Assembly (NCBI RefSeq): GCF_900104245.1
Contig: NZ_FMXN01000002.1
Coordinates: forward strand, 62,001-126,000
From: Pseudidiomarina indica
GTDB lineage: Bacteria > Pseudomonadota > Gammaproteobacteria > Enterobacterales > Alteromonadaceae
Direction of reading: 5' to 3'
Length of the DNA: 64,000 bases
The notes under the pieces are model-generated. The model saw only the letters and a list, made by a program, of their open reading frames with translations. It made no database searches and had not been told where the DNA came from. Positions 41,881-62,740 of the stretch are shown here, in pieces (position 1 is the first letter of the stretch; every line of letters begins with the position of its first letter). The position numbers and the translations under genes were made by a program.

Positions 41881-41921
41881 GCGCGCAACATCAGATGTTT
41901 TAGTAAAGGATGATCAATCAC

Positions 41922-43283
41922 ATGAAATCGCGCGCCTTATTTTCGCTAACGGCTCTGTCCGTGTTCGTACTCAGTAGCTGTGCGACCACAGCTCCATCCA
42001 CGTCAGCGGTCACCGCTGAAAGCACCGCTCCCAATATTATTTTTATGATTGGCGATGGCATGGGCTTTGAATATATCTCTGCCTATCGTTACGCCATTAG
42101 TGAGTTGGGGCAAGATGAACTGGCGCCGACGCCATTTGATGATTTACTGGTAGGTGCCGCCACCACCTATCCTGATGACGATACCTGGGTCACGGATTCT
42201 GCTGCCGGTGCCACGGCCTTAGCCACTGGCTATAAAAGTTACAATGGTGCCATTGGTCTGGATACCCATAAGAACCCGCAGCAAACATTGATGGAACGTG
42301 CGCGTGAGCACGGCTGGGGCACGGGTGCGGTCGTGACCGTGCAAGTGAACCACGCCACCCCTGCCAGCTTCTTTACCCATCATCCATCGCGCAGTCTTTA
42401 TAACGACATCGCCGATAGTTACGCCACGCAAGTGACCAACGGCGGTTGGAGTTATGATGTGTTGCTCGGCGGCGGTTACAGCTATTTTCATCGCGACGAT
42501 GTGAATTGGTTGCCGCAACTGACCGAGCAAGGCATGCAAGTGATCACCCAACTCGACCAATTGGACGAGATTCAGCAAACCCCAGTGTTGGGACTATTTG
42601 CGCCCAAAGCACTGCCGCTTGCCATTGATACCCGCACCGATCGCTTGGCGGACATGACCCAACACGCACTGCGCCTGCTGGATCAACAATCGGAGCAAAA
42701 CGGTAAGCCGTTTGCGCTCATGATTGAAGGCAGCATGATTGACTGGTGTGGCCACGCCAACGATATCGCCTGCGCTGTGCATGAAATGGCCGACTTTGCC
42801 AATGCCGTGCAAGTGGTGCGTGATTACATGGCCAACAACCCCAACACCTTATTGGTGATCACTGCAGACCATTCCACTGGTGGTTTAACACTGGGCCAAG
42901 GCGGTGAATACGCATGGCATACCGACAAAGTGATGGGAATTCAAAACTCCTTTGAAGTCATGGCTGGCGAATTGGCCAAACGGCCACGGTCTGAATGGCG
43001 CGAGTACCTGACGCCGGTGTTGAACTTGCCACTCACCGATGCCCAGTGGGACAGCTTAATGGCGGTGCAATTAGATGAGTCCGTGCAAGGTCGTGAACGG
43101 TTGTATCCGATTCATCAGGCACTGCTGGCTATCGTCACCGAACACACCCGCACTGGTTGGACCACCTCAGGTCATACTGCGGTCGACGTCCCCATTATGG
43201 CGGCCGGCCCAGGTGCTGACCTGTTCGGTGGCTATATGAACAACACTGAAATCGCGAAGGCGTTATTGAAGTTGGTGCGCTAA
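41922..43283 (+). CDS. Alkaline phosphatase (PhoA family), lipoprotein
   Basis: A 453-residue phosphomonoesterase with a lipoprotein signal (VFVLSSCATT). Active-site features of the PhoA family are visible: IFMIGDGMGFEY (metal Asp), TDSAAGATALATG with the nucleophile Ser, NHATPASFF, MIEGSMIDWCGHAND (metal Glu/Asp/His), ADHSTGGL and SGHTAVDVP. I start at the ATG at 41922, 11 bases after AAGGA; an ATG at 41910 overlaps that site. It lies behind a Pho-box-like promoter, so phosphate starvation is the likely inducer. The nearby exported nuclease could supply its nucleotide substrates. Confidence 0.92.
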   Translation: MKSRALFSLTALSVFVLSSCATTAPSTSAVTAESTAPNIIFMIGDGMGFEYISAYRYAISELGQDELAPTPFDDLLVGAATTYPDDDTWVTDSAAGATALATGYKSYNGAIGLDTHKNPQQTLMERAREHGWGTGAVVTVQVNHATPASFFTHHPSRSLYNDIADSYATQVTNGGWSYDVLLGGGYSYFHRDDVNWLPQLTEQGMQVITQLDQLDEIQQTPVLGLFAPKALPLAIDTRTDRLADMTQHALRLLDQQSEQNGKPFALMIEGSMIDWCGHANDIACAVHEMADFANAVQVVRDYMANNPNTLLVITADHSTGGLTLGQGGEYAWHTDKVMGIQNSFEVMAGELAKRPRSEWREYLTPVLNLPLTDAQWDSLMAVQLDESVQGRERLYPIHQALLAIVTEHTRTGWTTSGHTAVDVPIMAAGPGADLFGGYMNNTEIAKALLKLVR

Positions 43284-43290
43284 GCGCACC
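43274..43290. terminator. Palindrome spanning both stop codons of convergent genes
   Basis: GGTGCGC, TAA, GCGCACC forms a perfect 7-bp stem with a three-base loop. The loop TAA is the phosphatase stop. The asnB stop (TAG on the minus strand) covers the same place. There is no U-run on either strand, so it is at most a weak bidirectional end signal. Confidence 0.4.
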
Positions 43291-45295
43291 ACCCCAATTC
43301 CTCCGCACGTTGCTGGGCAACTTTGGGCACATCGGTTGCCACAAAGTGTTGGTGTAAAATCTGCACCCCCAGCACGTGATTCACCATGGCATCCAACTGC
43401 ACTTTTTCTTCTGCCGACGTACGCTCATCGCCATAACGCTCGAGCATTCGCTGCACCTCAGCTGCATCTAAAATCCCTGCCTCAGCAATGGCTTCTGCCG
43501 ATAAGTAGTGGCGTGCAAGCTGCTGTACCGCCTGCCATTTATGCGGATCGGTGTGAGCTGGTGGAGCCATAAAGGCAAACTTCTCACGATAATATAAGGT
43601 GTCCGGTAACAAGCCCCTCATGGCCTCACGCAGCACGTGCTTCTCACGCTTGCCCTTAATGCGCAAATGAGGCGGAATGGTGGCCGCATATTCAGCCAAG
43701 TGATGGTCTAAAAATGCCGGCCGTGCTTCCATGGAATGAGCCATATCCACCCGATCCCCACCCCAGGTTAAAATTTGCCCCTCCAACATGGTCTTAATCC
43801 ACACGTACTGCGCTTTATCCAGCGGGTGACGATCGGCCAACATGCTGGCATCCAAGGTATCCGCAATGGCTTGGCCGGCGTCATAGCCCTGCAACTGGTC
43901 TCGATGAGCAGGCGCCAGCAAGGGCATGGCCAGTTCACTACAAGACAGCCAAGGTTGTAAACAGCTTGGCGTAAAACCCACTTTGGCCGTCAGCGCAGCA
44001 CTTTCCCATTCTTCACGGGCCAACATGGCGCCCTTCACCAACTGATTCGACTCGGCCAGGTGTTGTTGCCAAGCTTCACGCTCTGCCGCTGGCAAATGGG
44101 CCAAGCCATGCTTAAACATATCCAACCGAAACGACGGGTAGCCGCCAAAGAGTTCATCGGAGCCCTCGCCCGTCAACACCACTTTATAACCGGCCTGCTG
44201 CACCTGTTGGCTCATCAGGTACTTCGCCACCCCTAAGGTGTTATAAATGGTGCGTTCGGTGTGCCATAAAGTATCGACAAAATGGTCGTACAGTTCTTCC
44301 CCGGATAAACTCATCACATGGTGGTCTGCCCCAGTGACTGCTGCCATTTCTTTGGCAATGGCCGTTTCATCATAGTCGGCTGAGTTAAAACCAATGGTGA
44401 ACGCTTTGATCGGGTTTTGTGACACCGCCGCGGCCAATCCTAAGATGGCACAAGAGTCGATGCCGCCGGACAAATAACAGCCCACGGGCACATCCGCATT
44501 CAAACGTAATTCTACGGCTTCCAAGAGCTTTTCACGCACGCCATCCACGTACTCCTGCTCCATCGCAGCATCGGTGTCTTGCACATGAGATGTGGGAAAG
44601 GTCATATCCCAATACTTGCTCTGGCTTATCGTCAGCTGCCCTTGCGCACGCTGGATTTTAACCATATGCCCCGGCGGGACTTGCTGAACCCCCGCAAATG
44701 CGGTGGTACCTGGCACCATCACTTGAATCAACTGATGGAATAGCCCCTCACTGGAAAACTCACGCGGCACCTCAGGGTGCGCAAACAAGGCTTTAAGTTC
44801 TGAGCCAAACACCACGCCTGACTCGGTTTCTGCGTAGTACAGGGGTTTCACCCCAAAGCGGTCACGCACCAAATACAAGGTATCCAACGCGCGGTCGTAC
44901 AAGGCAAAAGCAAACTCGCCGCGCAACTGGGTTAAGGTTTGCTCCAGTCCATCCCGTTGATACAGGTGCAATGCAATCTCGGTATCCGCTTTACTGCGGA
45001 ACTGAACGCCCTGCGCCGTCAAATCAGCACGGATGCGTTGAAAATCATAAAACTCGCCATTCACCGCCAACATCACCTGTTGGTTCTCGCTCACAAAGGG
45101 TTGGCGAGCCCGTTGTTCATTTAAATCAATAATCGACAAGCGCGCATGGCTGAACCCGACGCCACACTCCGGCAGCACCTGGTAACCAAACCCATCAGGC
45201 CCGCGATGGGACATCATGGCAACCATATTCACCAATTGCTGCGGTTGCGGTTGCTGCTGCACATCGCGCTTAAATATTCCGGCAATTCCACACAT
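43280..45295 (-). CDS. asnB: Glutamine-dependent asparagine synthetase (AsnB-like)
   Basis: A 671-residue amidotransferase/ligase. The N-terminal class II glutaminase has Cys2 as nucleophile (MCGIAGIF), with HRGPDGFG and NGEFYD. The C-terminal synthetase has the PP-loop YLSGGIDSCAIL (about 270-281) and LTGEGSDELFGGY. It is longer than E. coli AsnB (554) and resembles the large B. subtilis AsnB/AsnO group, some of which amidate other carboxylates such as peptidoglycan or polysaccharide precursors. AGGAG precedes the ATG. It is the last gene of a five-gene minus-strand operon, 23 bases after the carbamoyltransferase, so its substrate may be the product of that pathway. Confidence 0.88.
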   Translation of the reverse strand: MCGIAGIFKRDVQQQPQPQQLVNMVAMMSHRGPDGFGYQVLPECGVGFSHARLSIIDLNEQRARQPFVSENQQVMLAVNGEFYDFQRIRADLTAQGVQFRSKADTEIALHLYQRDGLEQTLTQLRGEFAFALYDRALDTLYLVRDRFGVKPLYYAETESGVVFGSELKALFAHPEVPREFSSEGLFHQLIQVMVPGTTAFAGVQQVPPGHMVKIQRAQGQLTISQSKYWDMTFPTSHVQDTDAAMEQEYVDGVREKLLEAVELRLNADVPVGCYLSGGIDSCAILGLAAAVSQNPIKAFTIGFNSADYDETAIAKEMAAVTGADHHVMSLSGEELYDHFVDTLWHTERTIYNTLGVAKYLMSQQVQQAGYKVVLTGEGSDELFGGYPSFRLDMFKHGLAHLPAAEREAWQQHLAESNQLVKGAMLAREEWESAALTAKVGFTPSCLQPWLSCSELAMPLLAPAHRDQLQGYDAGQAIADTLDASMLADRHPLDKAQYVWIKTMLEGQILTWGGDRVDMAHSMEARPAFLDHHLAEYAATIPPHLRIKGKREKHVLREAMRGLLPDTLYYREKFAFMAPPAHTDPHKWQAVQQLARHYLSAEAIAEAGILDAAEVQRMLERYGDERTSAEEKVQLDAMVNHVLGVQILHQHFVATDVPKVAQQRAEELGWCA

Positions 45296-45318
45296 TTAAT
45301 TCTCCTGCTTAATTCTGG

Positions 45319-46383
45319 TTACACCACATCAATCACGTGCTCGGTACGCTCCACCATACAAGTGAGCAGCGCCATCCGCAGAAACACCGCACCGCGCGCT
45401 TGGCTGAAATACCAATTGTGCGGGGTATGATCGAGATCGGTCGCAAGTTCTTCACCGCGAGCCAGCGGGTGTAAAATAATGGCGTCGGGTTTCAACGGAG
45501 AGGCCGCATTCAGGTGAAAGCGCCGACCGTAGGTATGCACACAATCCCCTTCCCACGAAATCGCATTGATGTAGATAACATCCAACTCAGGTAATTCGGG
45601 CTCCAGCTGGTGGCTGGTGGTAATTTTCAAGCCACGCTGCTCCAACTCTTCCCGCTGGCCTGGAGCAAATAACTCGGTCTCTGCCGCGTCATCGTAAATC
45701 ACCACCACTTCGGCAACCGCGTGCGAGAACACGGACAAACACTTCAAAAAGCTCCGTACCGTGCGCATTTTATTGGGCACCCCAATCACACCCACACGAA
45801 TTTTGTTGGTCACCGTAGGGTCCAACAAATCTGGGCGCCATTTAAAAATGGCATACATATCCGCCAAAGCTTGGGTTGGGTGCTCATCGGTGCCATTGCC
45901 CGCATTAATAATCGGGATCCGTAAAGAATCCATCATGTCGTACAAGGAATGATTGCAATTGTCCCGCAGCACCACACAGTCACCGTAGTTATTGAACATT
46001 TCGGCAACGTCCGCCAAGCCTTCACCCTTGGCAATTCCCGTGGTGGAACGGTCGGTAATCGACATGATATCGCCCCCCAAGCGATGCCAAGCACTCTCAA
46101 AGGACAAGCGGGTGCGCGTACTCGGCTCATAAAAAGCACTGATTAAAATTTTATTGCGCAGCGGGGTATGAAAGCGCTTCGGGTTACTTTCAATTTTGGC
46201 CGCCAACCGAAAGAGTTGCTGCATGGTGTGCTGATCAAACTGATCACCCGAAACGATATGCTGGTTGGCCAATTGAATCAGGCAATCGCCCTCTTCTTGG
46301 ATAGCCCGCAGTAACGCCTTTGGGTGCGCATCACCATAAACATCAGGACGAGCGCGTTGAAACGAAATATCTTGCAACGTCAT
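45319..46383 (-). CDS. Aspartate carbamoyltransferase-like enzyme with altered substrate site
   Basis: A 354-residue transcarbamylase. Carbamoyl-phosphate residues are kept: STRTR (88-92), the lysine of IAKGEGLAD (80s loop), the Arg of VVLRDN, GTDEHPTQAL and NKMRTVRSFL. But where ATCases have the aspartate-binding TRVQKE (Arg229/Gln231 in E. coli), this protein has NAISWEGD (273-280), and HPLPR is HPLAR. The N-terminus is about 30 residues longer than E. coli PyrB, and no pyrI follows. I therefore doubt that free aspartate is its substrate, though it may be a divergent PyrB. The ATG at 46383 is 6 bases after the small peptide gene; its ribosome site is weak. Confidence 0.8.
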   Translation of the reverse strand: MTLQDISFQRARPDVYGDAHPKALLRAIQEEGDCLIQLANQHIVSGDQFDQHTMQQLFRLAAKIESNPKRFHTPLRNKILISAFYEPSTRTRLSFESAWHRLGGDIMSITDRSTTGIAKGEGLADVAEMFNNYGDCVVLRDNCNHSLYDMMDSLRIPIINAGNGTDEHPTQALADMYAIFKWRPDLLDPTVTNKIRVGVIGVPNKMRTVRSFLKCLSVFSHAVAEVVVIYDDAAETELFAPGQREELEQRGLKITTSHQLEPELPELDVIYINAISWEGDCVHTYGRRFHLNAASPLKPDAIILHPLARGEELATDLDHTPHNWYFSQARGAVFLRMALLTCMVERTEHVIDVV

Positions 46384-46389
46384 TATCAA

Positions 46390-46509
46390 TTACCATAGTT
46401 GATTAGAAAGGAGGTCTCGCAACCATAAAATAAGAAGGTAAACGGGGCTGATTGCAGCAAAGAGCAAACATCCCAGAATCAGTAAGTTAAATGCAGTGAG
46501 CCCTAGCAT
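46390..46509 (-). CDS. Symporter small accessory peptide (39 aa)
   Basis: A single-helix membrane peptide: MLGLTAFNLLILGCLL, a helix to about residue 30, then a short charged tail (RDLLSNQLW). Its ATG lies inside the last codons of the symporter gene (overlap 7 bases), and AGGAG sits about 9 bases upstream within that gene. Very small proteins of this kind are known beside SSS-family symporters, where they are thought to be accessory subunits. Position, overlap, ribosome site and composition all support a real gene. A longer in-frame reading up to 46833 is out of frame with, and inside, the symporter. Confidence 0.8.
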   Translation of the reverse strand: MLGLTAFNLLILGCLLFAAISPVYLLILWLRDLLSNQLW

Positions 46510-47936
46510 CCGTCCGACTCCTGTAATTGCTGCCAACGAAAGCTGGTGGTCGACCACCGCAAGCCCAGCACACACACCAGCATCGACACCACACTGGAGG
46601 TGAGCGCTGCCACGTAAAAACCCACCACAAAGTAGCTGATTAACCCCAGCGTACTCCCGGCAATCATGGCAAGGGTGGCGGTGCGACCGCTCAGTTTCGG
46701 GTGATAAAGCCCCAACACAATGGGGAAAATAGTGCTGGCAACAAAGGCCCCGGTGAAATGCAGTAAGGCGGCCAACGTCGCAACCTGAGGTAAGCACAGC
46801 AGCCAGGTAAACACCCCTAAGCCAATCAGGCACAGGCGATTCCAGCGAATAAGCTGCTGATCGTTCGCTTCGGGATTAAAAAATTGGCAATAAATATCTC
46901 GGGTAATCAAATCGGAGGTAGCTGCCAACAGGGAATCAAGGCTAGAAGCCAGCGCTGAAAACACCACAACCAGCACAATCACGGCACCGACTTTGCCGAG
47001 CACTTGCGCCGTCACCATGGGCCCAATCATGTCCGCGCTGGGTGGGTAGATGCCGAGTTGCGGCGCCGCCAGCGCAATAAAGCCCGTGACGATAGGAATG
47101 GGTAACCACAGGAGCCCGCCAATAAGAAAGGCTTTAAACGCAATCCCCTTGCGGAAGGCCTGCGCACGGGACCACCACACATTGGAGTGAAAAATCTCCC
47201 CCAGCCCAAAGAAAATATTATTAAATAAAAACATCAAGGCAGCAGGAAACAGTAAATCCAATAACTTAGGGTGATTATCCGATAGGTTTTGATGGATGCT
47301 TGCTAAGGACACCTTATCGATTAAGAACCACGCTGTGACCACCACGCCAATGATAATGACTACGGTTTGAATAAAGTCCGTGGCAATCACCGCGCGCAGG
47401 CCACCGAACAAGGTGTAACCAACACAAATAAACAGAATCACCGACATGCCAATGTGATAATCCAGGCCGGTCAATGCTTGCAGCAAAATGCCACCCGCCA
47501 TGCCCAAACTGACCAACCACCCCAAGGCATAGATCAATGAAATCACAATAAACGGCCACCATGCTGCACGCCCAAACCGCAAGCGAATAAAGTCACCGGA
47601 GGTGTAGCCCATGGGCATCAGCTGTTTGATACGTGCCGCTAACGGGGCAAATAAAATTAAGCCAAGGGCGGCGAAGGAATACCCCACCATGCCCCAAATA
47701 CCCAACTGATAGGCCAGTTGCGGCGCGACTAAGGTGGTGTTACTGGTCACCCAAGTGGCCATGGCCGTTGCCATGGCTAACGCTAAGCCCACCTGCCTAC
47801 CAGCGAGGGCAAAGTCATCATGGGTTTGATTCTTGCGGCCTAAATACCAGCCATAAAAAATCCACAGAATCCCAAAGGCGATAATCAGGGCCACCCCAAG
47901 GGAGGTGGGCAATGCATAGCTGATGGGTTCACTCAT
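46503..47936 (-). CDS. Sodium:solute symporter (SSS family)
   Basis: A 477-residue transporter with about 13 hydrophobic segments. SSS-family features include YGWYLGRKNQTHDDFALAGRQVG near the N-terminus, ATWVTSNTTLVAP on helix 2, YTLFGGLRAVIATDFIQTVVI (about 180-200) and FSALASSLDSLLAATSDLITRDIY on the sodium-site helix. The substrate cannot be read from sequence; neighbours suggest an amino acid, ureido or amide compound. The ATG at 47936 overlaps the upstream FN3-like gene by 8 bases, with GGAG about 12 bases upstream. It is the presumed uptake step of the operon. Confidence 0.9.
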   Translation of the reverse strand: MSEPISYALPTSLGVALIIAFGILWIFYGWYLGRKNQTHDDFALAGRQVGLALAMATAMATWVTSNTTLVAPQLAYQLGIWGMVGYSFAALGLILFAPLAARIKQLMPMGYTSGDFIRLRFGRAAWWPFIVISLIYALGWLVSLGMAGGILLQALTGLDYHIGMSVILFICVGYTLFGGLRAVIATDFIQTVVIIIGVVVTAWFLIDKVSLASIHQNLSDNHPKLLDLLFPAALMFLFNNIFFGLGEIFHSNVWWSRAQAFRKGIAFKAFLIGGLLWLPIPIVTGFIALAAPQLGIYPPSADMIGPMVTAQVLGKVGAVIVLVVVFSALASSLDSLLAATSDLITRDIYCQFFNPEANDQQLIRWNRLCLIGLGVFTWLLCLPQVATLAALLHFTGAFVASTIFPIVLGLYHPKLSGRTATLAMIAGSTLGLISYFVVGFYVAALTSSVVSMLVCVLGLRWSTTSFRWQQLQESDGC

Positions 47937-48414
47937 AACGACTACGACTCCAATGACCTCGAACAATCATCACCACCAACAACCCAAACATGGCGCCCCC
48001 AAAACACAATAATCCAATCGCCAAGTTCAAGGGATAATGCTGCACCCTGACCATCACCACCGGCCCTACTTGGTTAGGTGCCGAGCCATCAACGCCCGCC
48101 TGAGCCAAACGGAAATAGTGTTGGCCGTTGGGAAAACCAGACAACGTCATCTGAGAAAAGTCAGCAAACCACGGGTATTGAGCAGTGACTTGAGTAAACT
48201 GGGGGTCGGTCGAATATTCCACCACCAAGGGAACGGTAGGAAGTGACTGTAATTGAAGGGTAAAGTATCCTTCGCGACTGATAGCTGGGGCGGTTAATAG
48301 CGGCAGTTCGGCGCGCACTGAGGGGGGTGCTTCATGCGCAGCGGGAGGGCGCGCGTGCAGCGTGATTAAAAATAGCAAAATAATCTGAACAATAAACCTT
48401 GCGCGGTTTGGCAC
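47929..48414 (-). CDS. Membrane-anchored FN3-like periplasmic protein
   Basis: A 161-residue protein with an N-terminal signal (FIVQIILLFLITLHARPPAA), one beta-rich domain of about 90 residues with fibronectin type III character (LVVEYSTDPQFTQVTAQYPWF and GQHYFRLAQAGVDG), and a C-terminal helix (LAIGLLCFGGAMFGLLVVMIV) followed by a basic tail. It starts with GTG, with GGAGGA upstream. It is the first gene of the symporter operon, overlapping it by 8 bases. A periplasmic binding or docking role beside the symporter is inferred; the family itself I do not recognise. Confidence 0.75.
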   Translation of the reverse strand: MPNRARFIVQIILLFLITLHARPPAAHEAPPSVRAELPLLTAPAISREGYFTLQLQSLPTVPLVVEYSTDPQFTQVTAQYPWFADFSQMTLSGFPNGQHYFRLAQAGVDGSAPNQVGPVVMVRVQHYPLNLAIGLLCFGGAMFGLLVVMIVRGHWSRSRYE

Positions 48415-48465
48415 AATTCCTCCCAGGCTGATTCGTTATTTAGGCTAACAAGTGAGGAAAAGCAT

Positions 48466-48485
48466 TGCAACTTCAGTTATGCTCC
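48466..48485 (+). promoter_or_regulatory. Promoter-region motif upstream of the folK-like gene
   Basis: TGCAACTTCAGTTATGCTCC differs by one base from the motif before mfd. Its TATGCT (48478-48483) would place the start near 48490, about 22 bases before the ATG. It lies in the 97-base divergent gap between the symporter operon and the pterin genes. Confidence 0.5.
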
Positions 48486-48511
48486 TTGCCATTGAATTGA
48501 AAAGGTTGGCT

Positions 48512-48907
48512 ATGAATTATCGTTATCTATGCACCATGGGCGCAAATATTGCCCCAGAGGCTAATTTTGCTGCAGCCAGAGAGCTGCTTTCACAATTCGG
48601 ACACGCCTATTATTCACGGGCGGTGTACACCCAACCGGTGGCCATGACCACCAACCACCAGTTCTTGAATGCACTCTTTATTTTTGTAACCGACTTAGAC
48701 CCAGTGTCGTTAAAAGAACAATTTAATACCATTGAACAGCGCCTAGGACGGGATCGTGATGACCCGTTAAGCGCCCAAAAAGATCGGCCCATGGATATTG
48801 ATATTTTAGGTGATTGCTGCTCATCCGAGGCATGGCAACAAGTGCCATCCTACCTGCAATGTGTCGTTCCCAACCTGCGTCCGATTGTCGAACAACTCAG
48901 CCATTAA
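48512..48907 (+). CDS. Short HPPK-like protein (pterin pyrophosphokinase family)
   Basis: A 131-residue relative of 6-hydroxymethyl-7,8-dihydropterin pyrophosphokinase (FolK). Matching elements: MGANIAPEANFAAARELL at the N-terminus, YSRAVYTQPVAM, NHQFLNALFIFVTDLDP, QRLGRDRDDP and the metal-binding RPMDIDIL with both Asp residues. True FolK is about 160 residues, so this is a short form, missing much of the C-terminus. AAGG stands 7 bases before the ATG at 48512; a start at 48452 is unlikely. Co-oriented with a FolM-like reductase, it probably works on pterins; whether it is the organism's main FolK is unclear. Confidence 0.75.
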   Translation: MNYRYLCTMGANIAPEANFAAARELLSQFGHAYYSRAVYTQPVAMTTNHQFLNALFIFVTDLDPVSLKEQFNTIEQRLGRDRDDPLSAQKDRPMDIDILGDCCSSEAWQQVPSYLQCVVPNLRPIVEQLSH

Positions 48908-48932
48908 CTCAGGAATTCAGCGAGGAAGCTTC

Positions 48933-49646
48933 ATGAACGCACGCACAAAAACTGCATTAATTACGGGGGCGGGTCGCCGTTTAGGCTTCGCTTTAGGTCA
49001 AGCGCTGCTCAATGAGGGGTATCAAGTGATTGCCCATTATCATTCATCGGCGACGGGAGTGGCCGAGTTAGTGGCACAGGGGGCCGTTGCCCTGCAAGCA
49101 GATTTGGCCGATTTAACCCAGGTGCGCCAGTTGATCCAACAAGTTCAGCAACTGGCTCCCCAACTCGACCTATTAATCAACAATGCCTCGTGCTTTTTTG
49201 ACAACGACAAAGTTGCCACAAGCGATGAACACTTGCAGGCCGTTTTTAGTGTGCACACCATGGCCCCTTACTTGCTGATGGAGCAGTTAACGCCCCAACT
49301 TACCCAAGCGCAGGGATGTGTGATTAATCTGACAGATATTTACGTGGAAAGCCCCAACCCACAGTACATTGCGTACTGTGCTGCCAAAGCAGGGTTGGCA
49401 AACTTAACCTTAAGTTTCGCCAAAAAATTAGCCCCGGCCGTGCGCGTTAACGCCATTCAGCCAGGGCCTATTCTGTTTCTACCAGAGCATGAATCCGATT
49501 ACCGGCAGCAAGTTTTAGCCGAAACCCCGTTGCAACTTGAAGGTGGCTTAGAGCCGGTGATTCAAGCCATGCGTTTATTACGCGACAACCCCTTTATCAC
49601 CGGCGAATCCATCAAAGTTGACGGCGGCAGAGCATTATTAATTTAA
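48933..49646 (+). CDS. folM: FolM-like short-chain reductase (dihydromonapterin reductase type)
   Basis: A 237-residue short-chain dehydrogenase. It has the NADP(H) motif [12 protein letters not shown] with the double Arg typical of FolM/PTR1 proteins, LINNASCFF, and the active-site segment NLTDIYVE followed by [11 protein letters not shown] (Tyr-x3-Lys). In place of the usual catalytic Ser the TD dipeptide occurs, as in E. coli FolM. FolM reduces dihydromonapterin and, less well, dihydrofolate. The ATG at 48933 follows GAGGAAG, 25 bases after the HPPK-like gene, supporting a pterin role. The gene overlaps acnA tail to tail by 4 bases. Confidence 0.82.
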
Positions 49647-61540: not shown

Positions 61541-62740
61541 TTATTTTGCTTTCGTCTGCTGGGCTGAAATCAGGAAGTTGCGCGGCGTCAAGTTGTAGTC
61601 ACAAAACTCCTTAATTTGTACCTGATAGCCCTGCTCTTGCAAATACTGAGCGCGATCTAACACCAACATGGCTTCCAACGGCCGACGGAACAAATGCCGC
61701 ACTAAATCCATCCGTGCGACTCGGATACGCTCCGCCTCGCCACTGGCTAATAAATAAGGCACATCAACTTCAGCCGGGAGCTCAATGCCATGTTGCTGCG
61801 CTGCCCACTTGGCAAAATCCAAAAACTCACCACTGAACCAGTGCTTGCTCACCGACGGCAACGGCCGATAGTGTAACTGCCCAGAAACTATTTGGTACAG
61901 CTGTTGATACGCCAACCGCCACTGCACTTCTTGCTGCCGCAAGCGTGCCACCCGCGCCCCTGCCGTGACCTGCTCTTGCACCGCCAATTTCAAATCGGCG
62001 CGGGTCAGCGGACGCCCCACATACATAAAGTGCCGCCGCAACAACTGTTGCCCATACGCAGACAGCCCCGCGTAAGTATCCGCTTGAATTAAATGATAAC
62101 AACAGGGTGCCACATACAAGTTTTGCACCTGATGCTCGGCTCCTGAACGCAGCAATTGCAGATGCAGATCACCACAGGCATGCAAGGCCACCGCGCCATC
62201 CACTTGCGCCCACTGCTCATCCAGCCCATGCTGCAACACATCGGCTTGAATAAACTGCTGCGGCAATTGGTGCTGTTGCGCCAGTTGCTGGCCCGCTTCA
62301 CACAACGCTGGCTGCCATTCCACACTGCACACTGAATGCTGGTGGGTAAAACTTAGCAAACGCCCTAAATGCCCTTTGCCTGCACACCATTCCATCAGCC
62401 GTTGCGGCTGCGTGGGTAACTGCGCCAGCAAAGCTTCGATTTGCGCCAGTTTGCGCCCGCCAATGCCATTGGTGAGCCAAAATGGGATGTCGTACGAAGG
62501 CGGTGCAGCGTCGGCCACCTCATCGGCAATATCAGGCAGTACCAATAATTTCGGAAACCAAGGAGAAAAACAGGCAAAACTCAGCCGGCTGTCGGCCGCC
62601 AGTTCCTCAATTTCTGCTTCGCTCAAGTTCACCAGGTAGTGAACCAGCGTGGGGTTCCAGTCGGGGCGAGAACACTCAAAGGGCGAAAATTGCCAGTACT
62701 TGGCGTACTCAGCAAGCGTGGTGACGTACTGCTTCAGCAT
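61541..62740 (-). CDS. SAM-dependent methyltransferase of the METTL25/GSTCD type
   Basis: A 399-residue protein with a Rossmann methyltransferase core in the middle: LMEWCAGKGHLGRLLSF (SAM motif I, about 114-130), then VCSVEWQPALCEAG, VALHACGDLHLQLLR and the unusual YVAPCCYHLI (about 210-219). The CAGKGHL plus PCCYH pair is typical of this little-studied family, in which the target is not established. The flanking N- and C-terminal regions are not recognisable. It overlaps the ABC ATPase gene by 7 bases, which suggests co-expression but no obvious functional tie. Confidence 0.8.
   Translation of the reverse strand: MLKQYVTTLAEYAKYWQFSPFECSRPDWNPTLVHYLVNLSEAEIEELAADSRLSFACFSPWFPKLLVLPDIADEVADAAPPSYDIPFWLTNGIGGRKLAQIEALLAQLPTQPQRLMEWCAGKGHLGRLLSFTHQHSVCSVEWQPALCEAGQQLAQQHQLPQQFIQADVLQHGLDEQWAQVDGAVALHACGDLHLQLLRSGAEHQVQNLYVAPCCYHLIQADTYAGLSAYGQQLLRRHFMYVGRPLTRADLKLAVQEQVTAGARVARLRQQEVQWRLAYQQLYQIVSGQLHYRPLPSVSKHWFSGEFLDFAKWAAQQHGIELPAEVDVPYLLASGEAERIRVARMDLVRHLFRRPLEAMLVLDRAQYLQEQGYQVQIKEFCDYNLTPRNFLISAQQTKAK

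Follow-up and report, generated by a model that had tools for sequence, protein, structure and literature searches.

What might an operon that joins a sodium:solute symporter to a carbamoyltransferase and a relative of asparagine synthetase be for? Such an operon is found in Pseudidiomarina indica, within a stretch of 64,000 nucleotides (positions 62,001 to 126,000 of contig NZ_FMXN01000002.1, assembly GCF_900104245.1; hereafter the window, in whose numbering coordinates are given) of a 2.2 Mb host genome that is 99.9% complete in 31 contigs. On sequence evidence, and with a probability of about 0.64, we propose that it would serve the synthesis and (re)uptake of carbamoyl-glutamine amide (CGA) or a close analogue. 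The five genes share one strand, and the overlaps of 8 and 7 bases and gaps of 6 and 23 bases reported in a first-pass annotation of the window are exactly as described. In the order of transcription they are:

47929-48414, minus strand: FN3-like single-pass membrane protein, 161 amino acids (aa), with a GTG start behind GGAGG
46503-47936 (ATG at 47936), minus strand: SSS-family sodium:solute symporter, 477 aa, with an 8-base overlap with the FN3-like gene
46390-46509, minus strand: hydrophobic peptide of 39 aa, with a 7-base overlap with the symporter gene
45319-46383 (ATG at 46383), minus strand: carbamoyltransferase (CT), 354 aa, with the fold of aspartate transcarbamoylase (ATCase) and a 6-base gap to the peptide gene
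43280-45295, minus strand: AsnB-like glutamine-dependent amidotransferase, 671 aa, with a 23-base gap to the CT gene

The CT is, judged by its sequence, not PyrB: the carbamoyl-phosphate site is kept, while the pair of residues that reads aspartate is lost. Motifs were counted in 81 CT rows, i.e. the window and its relatives at the best 80 of 576 loci, which are those nearest to the first row of the query, some of them ending at contig edges. The window CT carries the Pfam domains OTCace_N (134 bits) and OTCace (43.5 bits). Across the family, the carbamoyl-phosphate site is retained as STRTR (81/81 rows), the [AK]KGE loop (81/81) and EHPTQ (80/81), and MRT[VI]RS, the R167 region, is retained in 80/81. 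TR[VI]Q, the motif that holds R229 and Q231 of E. coli ATCase, is found in none of the 81 rows, and the host's own PyrB has TRIQ; we take R229 and Q231 to read the side-chain carboxylate of aspartate. An aspartate-like compound, which the first-pass annotation had considered as the substrate, is disfavoured by this absence, and its alternative of a ureido compound fits. When the window CT is aligned to the solved E. coli ATCase, its A274 and S276 fall on R229 and Q231, respectively, and the replacing stretch has the form YIN[AS]I[AS]W in 73/81 rows, with INT (five rows), INK (one) and TNS (one) among the eight that deviate.

The resemblance to PyrB thus covers the fold, the carbamoyl-phosphate site, the K84 loop and the equivalent of R167, and the differences include HPLAR for HPLPR as well as the A274/S276 exchange. 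ATCases are the nearest solved relatives of the CT and the first structural matches of its AlphaFold model (pLDDT 82; 24 of the 81 CT rows were used as input), whereas its scores lie under the NCBIfam cut-offs for PyrB (189.9 vs 236.95 and 190.8 vs 263 bits) and for the best two ArgF models (110 vs 306 and 88 vs 281 bits). A tree was built from 21/81 CT rows, 7/8 order-level PyrB loci (L030, which contains a stop, was omitted) and the host's own PyrB and ArgF. A branch with support 100/96 separates the eight PyrB rows from all others, the CT rows included; no single branch sets the CT rows apart, because five paralogues branch among them with moderate support (86/92). These transcarbamoylase-like paralogues (L076-L080, in genomes G595, G486, G519, G665 and G570) are 36-44% identical to the window CT. 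STRTR is lost in four of them, the fifth (L079) is a fragment starting downstream of STRTR, and HPLxR is missing in all five, so that from their sequences they look catalytically altered or dead; G570 carries a normal CT besides its paralogue. The host has three carbamoyltransferases in total, namely the canonical PyrB on contig C4, ArgF on C9 adjoining argB and argC, and the operon CT. The first-pass annotation had named a CT that is the sole PyrB of the genome, and that rescues pyrimidine auxotrophy, as fatal to its own proposal; the separate PyrB rules out such a sole PyrB. As its predicted reaction, the window CT would carbamoylate glutamine, or an amino acid like it, at the alpha-amino group.

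Its partner is a recognisable glutamine-dependent enzyme, with the Pfam domains Asn_synthase (316 bits) and GATase_7, an N-terminal MCG in 79/79 family rows and an SGGIDS PP-loop in 77/79. It shares the GATase cysteine, the PP-loop and glutamine-dependent amide formation with AsnB and with the XrtA/PEP-CTERM amidotransferases, but in contrast to both it travels with a CT, and it scores 426 bits against a cut-off of 817 for the XrtA/PEP-CTERM model (TIGR03108). There are three PF00733 matches in the host genome, and only the AsnB-like gene is full-length. AsnA is encoded on contig C15, so in this genome, at least, the AsnB-like enzyme is not required for asparagine; as the host's only asparagine synthetase it is ruled out. 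It is predicted to amidate the carboxylate of a carbamoylated amino acid.

The two genes occur together. CT relatives scoring far above PyrB level were found in the host and 20/25 sampled congeners, and CT is present in 17/295 order-level genomes (host included). At class level, CT occurs at E <= 1e-70 in 23/369 genomes, again including the host, and the AsnB-like gene at E <= 1e-180 in 20/369, all of them CT-positive, against 0/346 CT-negative genomes (Fisher p 3e-30, ignoring kinship); the two samples, which agree in size and listed handles, were treated as one draw. In 18 of the 20 class-level pairs the genes lie 21-552 bases apart, and the remaining two pairs are split over contigs. The three CT-positive genomes without the AsnB-like gene (G357, G564 and G659) have completeness values of 86, 98 and 75% and consist of 270, 150 and 260 contigs, respectively. 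Among the 25 congeners, both genes are missing jointly from four (G001, G014, G016 and G025), two of which, G014 and G025, are 99% complete; all that G023 shows is a piece of AsnB at the end of a contig. G014 has AsnA, while in G025 neither AsnA (PF03590) nor, at E <= 1e-60, an AsnB was found, and asparagine is perhaps made there by tRNA-dependent amidation. Distances between CT proteins correlate with those between their AsnB-like partners (r 0.84, against a highest value of 0.16 in 2000 permutations; 73/79 pairs, truncated ones dropped).

The best 80 loci show how far the association extends. They include eight Ectothiorhodospira records, Thiorhodospira, many Thioalkalivibrio, Thiohalobacter, Thiohalophilus, Idiomarina, Aliidiomarina, Pseudidiomarina, Kangiella, Aliikangiella, Pleionea, symbionts of the clam Ctena orbiculata, and metagenome-assembled genomes (MAGs) labelled Leptospiraceae or Spirochaetaceae; most isolates among these named relatives belong to marine, saline or soda-lake genera. 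AsnB is present at 78 of the loci, the exceptions being L092 (Thiorhodospira) and L096 (a 3.2-kb contig). CT is followed by AsnB within 300 bases in 71/78, and in the other seven the two are 2.0-2.7 kb apart with two hydrolase genes in between. These hydrolases, an M20 protein (57 loci) and an isochorismatase-family protein (52 loci), are absent from the window cluster and were not part of the first-pass annotation. Four gene orders recur:

Idiomarinaceae, the window included: FN3, symporter, peptide, CT, AsnB
Thioalkalivibrio and others: FN3, M20, isochorismatase, symporter, peptide, CT, AsnB
Ectothiorhodospira (8/8 loci): M20, isochorismatase, CT, AsnB
spirochaete MAGs: FN3, symporter, peptide, CT, M20, isochorismatase, AsnB

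The order of the window is thus widespread among the genomes of relatives; its confinement to this one strain would, by the first-pass annotation, have refuted the proposal. The spirochaete-labelled MAG loci in which the order differs (L119, L150, L151, L155, L156 and L158) suggest inter-phylum transfer or mislabelled bins.

The two hydrolases belong to the families of the HyuC/AllC-type and BiuH/RutB-type amidohydrolases. The nearest relative of the M20 protein in the PDB is an N-carbamoyl-L-amino acid hydrolase (1.3e-77), and it exceeds the cut-off of the hydantoinase/carbamoylase family TIGR01879 (369 vs 204 bits), but is below those for N-carbamyl-L-glutamate amidohydrolase (ErtE; 387 vs 520) and AllC (271 vs 598). 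For the isochorismatase-family protein the nearest models, by weak scores, are biuret/ureidoacrylate amidohydrolases and putative amidases, all below cut-offs (66-78 vs 370 bits for BiuH). The host's sole isochorismatase-family protein (contig C19) does not really resemble the hydrolase of the cluster (best E 0.39). The pair likely provides the reverse activities of CT and AsnB. A CT without the aspartate pair, a co-travelling enzyme that forms amides and two hydrolases of opposite action point, as far as sequences can, to an N-carbamoyl amino acid amide as the product.

One known osmolyte, with which the first-pass annotation had made no connection, has this structure: CGA calls for a carbamoyltransferase and an amidotransferase, both of which the operon has, and the cluster is present in Ectothiorhodospira mobilis DSM 4180, where the M20, isochorismatase, CT and AsnB genes are consecutive (locus L085). 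Knowledge of the compound itself goes back to 1991, and the work of that year reportedly used this very strain. In the parts of the sources available, CGA is described from Ectothiorhodospira marismortui, with the charged alpha groups of glutamine masked (PMC1224877; PMC3857566), and E. marismortui is listed as DSM 4180T (PMC7824335). The cluster genes are hence found in the CGA-producing species, and carbamoylating and amidating enzymes stand in one cluster at 78 of the best 80 loci. The top rank of DSM 4180 follows from the set-up of the query, whose first row, from a phototroph picked through PF00124, is 100% identical to the CT of that strain; the informative point is that a member of the family exists there, inside this cluster, and not its rank. 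For Thiorhodospira sibirica, a CT carrier here, CGA has been named among the possible solutes, and accumulation of CGA in other purple sulfur bacteria is mentioned, both in the available part of the same source (PMC7824335).

The pathway would run in two steps. The CT would transfer the carbamoyl group of carbamoyl phosphate to the alpha-amino group of glutamine, after which the AsnB-like enzyme, with ATP, would activate the alpha-carboxylate and use ammonia from a second glutamine to form the 1-amide; both amino-acid charges would then be masked. The symporter, with the peptide and the FN3-like protein as accessories, may recapture leaked solute or scavenge it, driven by sodium. The way back in other lineages would begin with removal of the 1-amide by the isochorismatase-type hydrolase, after which the M20 hydrolase would split the remainder into the amino acid, CO2 and NH3.

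The closest known plan is that of the NAGGN operon (PA3459-PA3461, or asnO-ngg), in which, in the part of the source available, AsnB-like amidation of a glutamine-based osmolyte is linked to an N-blocking enzyme and to a hydrolase/peptidase (PMC8070244). Both systems combine AsnB-like C-terminal amidation with a partner that blocks the N-terminus. NAGGN, however, is blocked by a GNAT enzyme where the window operon has a carbamoyltransferase, and no symporter is mentioned in the available part of that source. Identity with the NAGGN operon was rejected, since the AsnB-like protein misses the cut-off of the NAGGN amidotransferase (TIGR03104; 323.8 vs 570.1 bits) and no Pfam match to a GNAT partner was found in the five operon proteins.

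The transport genes form the other half of the operon. The symporter belongs to the SSF family (PF00474; 99 bits, gathering score 22.8), lies under the TIGR00813 cut-off (139 vs 184 bits) and is present at 69 of the best 80 CT loci. Wherever the symporter lies upstream of CT (69 loci), a small hydrophobic open reading frame is found between the two (69/69, a raw count without a shuffled control), 39-40 aa long as called in 60/69 and 25-60 aa in the remainder, and in all 69 the peptide has a C-terminal tryptophan. By this conservation the 39-aa frame is a genuine gene; the window peptide and the relatives tried match no Pfam or NCBIfam family at cut-off, and it is predicted to be a small membrane accessory subunit of the symporter. 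The FN3-like protein gives nothing in Pfam at E <= 0.01. Its AlphaFold model (23/64 FN3 rows as input; pLDDT 86, pTM 0.65) consists of an N-terminal signal-like helix, a beta-sandwich and a C-terminal transmembrane helix, and Foldseek against the PDB returns mostly FN3 domains and monobodies as top matches (best E 2.9e-4). A homologue occurs at 63 of the best 80 CT loci, and it too is predicted to be an accessory subunit of the symporter. We infer the substrate of the symporter, and its role in uptake, from gene linkage. The interpretation in the first-pass annotation is partly supported overall: gene content bears out a dedicated pathway of carbamoyl and amide transfer that acts on one compound and has an SSS symporter linked to it, and the proposed uptake by the symporter stays at the level of linkage.

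The main rival retains this chemistry and changes the acceptor to a different neutral amino acid. The product would be another N-carbamoyl amino acid amide (for instance one derived from glycine, from asparagine or from a beta-amino acid) serving as an osmolyte or nitrogen store, with the CGA of Ectothiorhodospira made elsewhere or only one variant. The loss of R229 and Q231 argues against aspartate without specifying glutamine, i.e. what the sequences record is a loss of aspartate reading and not a new specificity, and the eight rows that deviate from YIN[AS]I[AS]W favour this rival further. It is nonetheless unlikely, as the cluster is present in the species from which CGA, the one compound of the type known to us, was described. 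Another explanation turns the pathway around, so that the symporter imports an allantoate-like or other ureido compound, the hydrolases strip it and the CT works in reverse to yield carbamoyl phosphate, while AsnB would supply asparagine or nitrogen balance. A symporter, an M20 protein and an isochorismatase-type hydrolase would suit such scavenging, and the best NCBIfam model for the M20 protein is an allantoate amidohydrolase subfamily (NF006771; 537 vs a cut-off of 399). A catabolic system is improbable, however, given that in the window, as in the other Idiomarinaceae loci, CT and AsnB stand without either hydrolase, and that AsnB-type enzymes, present at 78 of the best 80 CT loci, consume ATP to make amides. 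The least probable account is ordinary metabolism, in which the CT would be one more aspartate carbamoyltransferase, the AsnB-like enzyme an asparagine synthetase that depends on glutamine, and the symporter a general one for amino acids. The AsnB-like protein does exceed the asparagine synthase cut-off (TIGR01536; 454 vs 267 bits), ATCases are the nearest solved relatives of the CT, and AsnA is missing from 12/19 CT-positive genomes checked. This account has to be set against the CT scores under the PyrB cut-offs (190 vs 237-263 bits) and the missing R229/Q231, the separate PyrB and AsnA of the host, and a CT-AsnB pair that is held together in many families and in spirochaete-labelled MAGs.

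The M20 subfamily, the asparagine synthase score, the missing AsnA genes and the silence of the R229/Q231 loss on glutamine also weigh against CGA as the product, and further points must be added to them. In carriers without AsnA, the AsnB-like enzyme could also make asparagine. A search of the host genome for an M20 protein, run without a positive control, found nothing. Symporter and FN3-like genes are missing from all eight Ectothiorhodospira loci, so transport is not universal, and Thiorhodospira sibirica has CT without AsnB across a 19-kb locus. Ectoine synthase was found in 3/49 genomes checked, which indicates that the search works, and the host lacks it; this absence is weak support, because four CT-negative genomes checked also lack the gene. 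We know of no carrier outside the purple sulfur bacteria that makes CGA, nor of CGA from Idiomarinaceae. With no known CGA maker among the other carriers, the link between genotype and chemotype is thin, consisting of one producer species and enzyme logic. Within the part of the source available, CGA is known from one organism, as a minor solute (PMC3857566).

The surroundings of the operon set its limits on both sides:

41910-43283, plus strand: gene for an alkaline phosphatase of the PhoA type, convergent to the AsnB-like gene, the 3' ends overlapping by 4 bases
48452-49646, plus strand: short HPPK/FolK-like gene, divergent and starting at 48452, followed by a pteridine-reductase-like SDR gene

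The alkaline phosphatase neighbour recurs at two Pseudidiomarina loci, and the folK-like gene is also found upstream of the operon in nine Idiomarina and Pseudidiomarina loci; the FolK-like protein is slightly under its NCBIfam cut-off (50.7 vs 54.1 bits). A search for RNA elements between 41800 and 49700 returned none at gathering score, and a sigma-70 promoter scan gave 5 matches, every one on the plus strand, against 5.1 expected.

In the open-licence literature searched, no genes are assigned to CGA and there is no account of this gene set. The available part of PMC5818414 contains nothing on CGA, and the words 'carbamoyl' and 'asparagine' are absent from the main texts, as far as available, of two Thioalkalivibrio papers. 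One of these two papers lists genes for nitrogen assimilation, glnA among them, as up at high salt, which is compatible with CGA synthesis but not specific to it.

The candidate two-enzyme route predicts producers in many marine lineages. It would also give a new function to homologues of transcarbamoylase that probably carry the annotation aspartate carbamoyltransferase and stand beside partners annotated as asparagine synthase. A fuller scenario, which we hold tentatively and at somewhat less than even odds, is that marine and saline bacteria widely use CGA, or a carbamoyl-amino-acid amide close to it, as a transported osmolyte and carrier of nitrogen. If so, its carriers would reach beyond the purple bacteria to Idiomarinaceae, Kangiellaceae, Thioalkalivibrio, clam symbionts and the bacteria behind the spirochaete MAGs. 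A re-purposed aspartate transcarbamoylase and an AsnB-like enzyme would make the solute, a carbamoylase and an amidase dedicated to it would recycle it, and an SSS transporter of three parts, namely the symporter, the 40-aa peptide and the FN3 protein, would move it.

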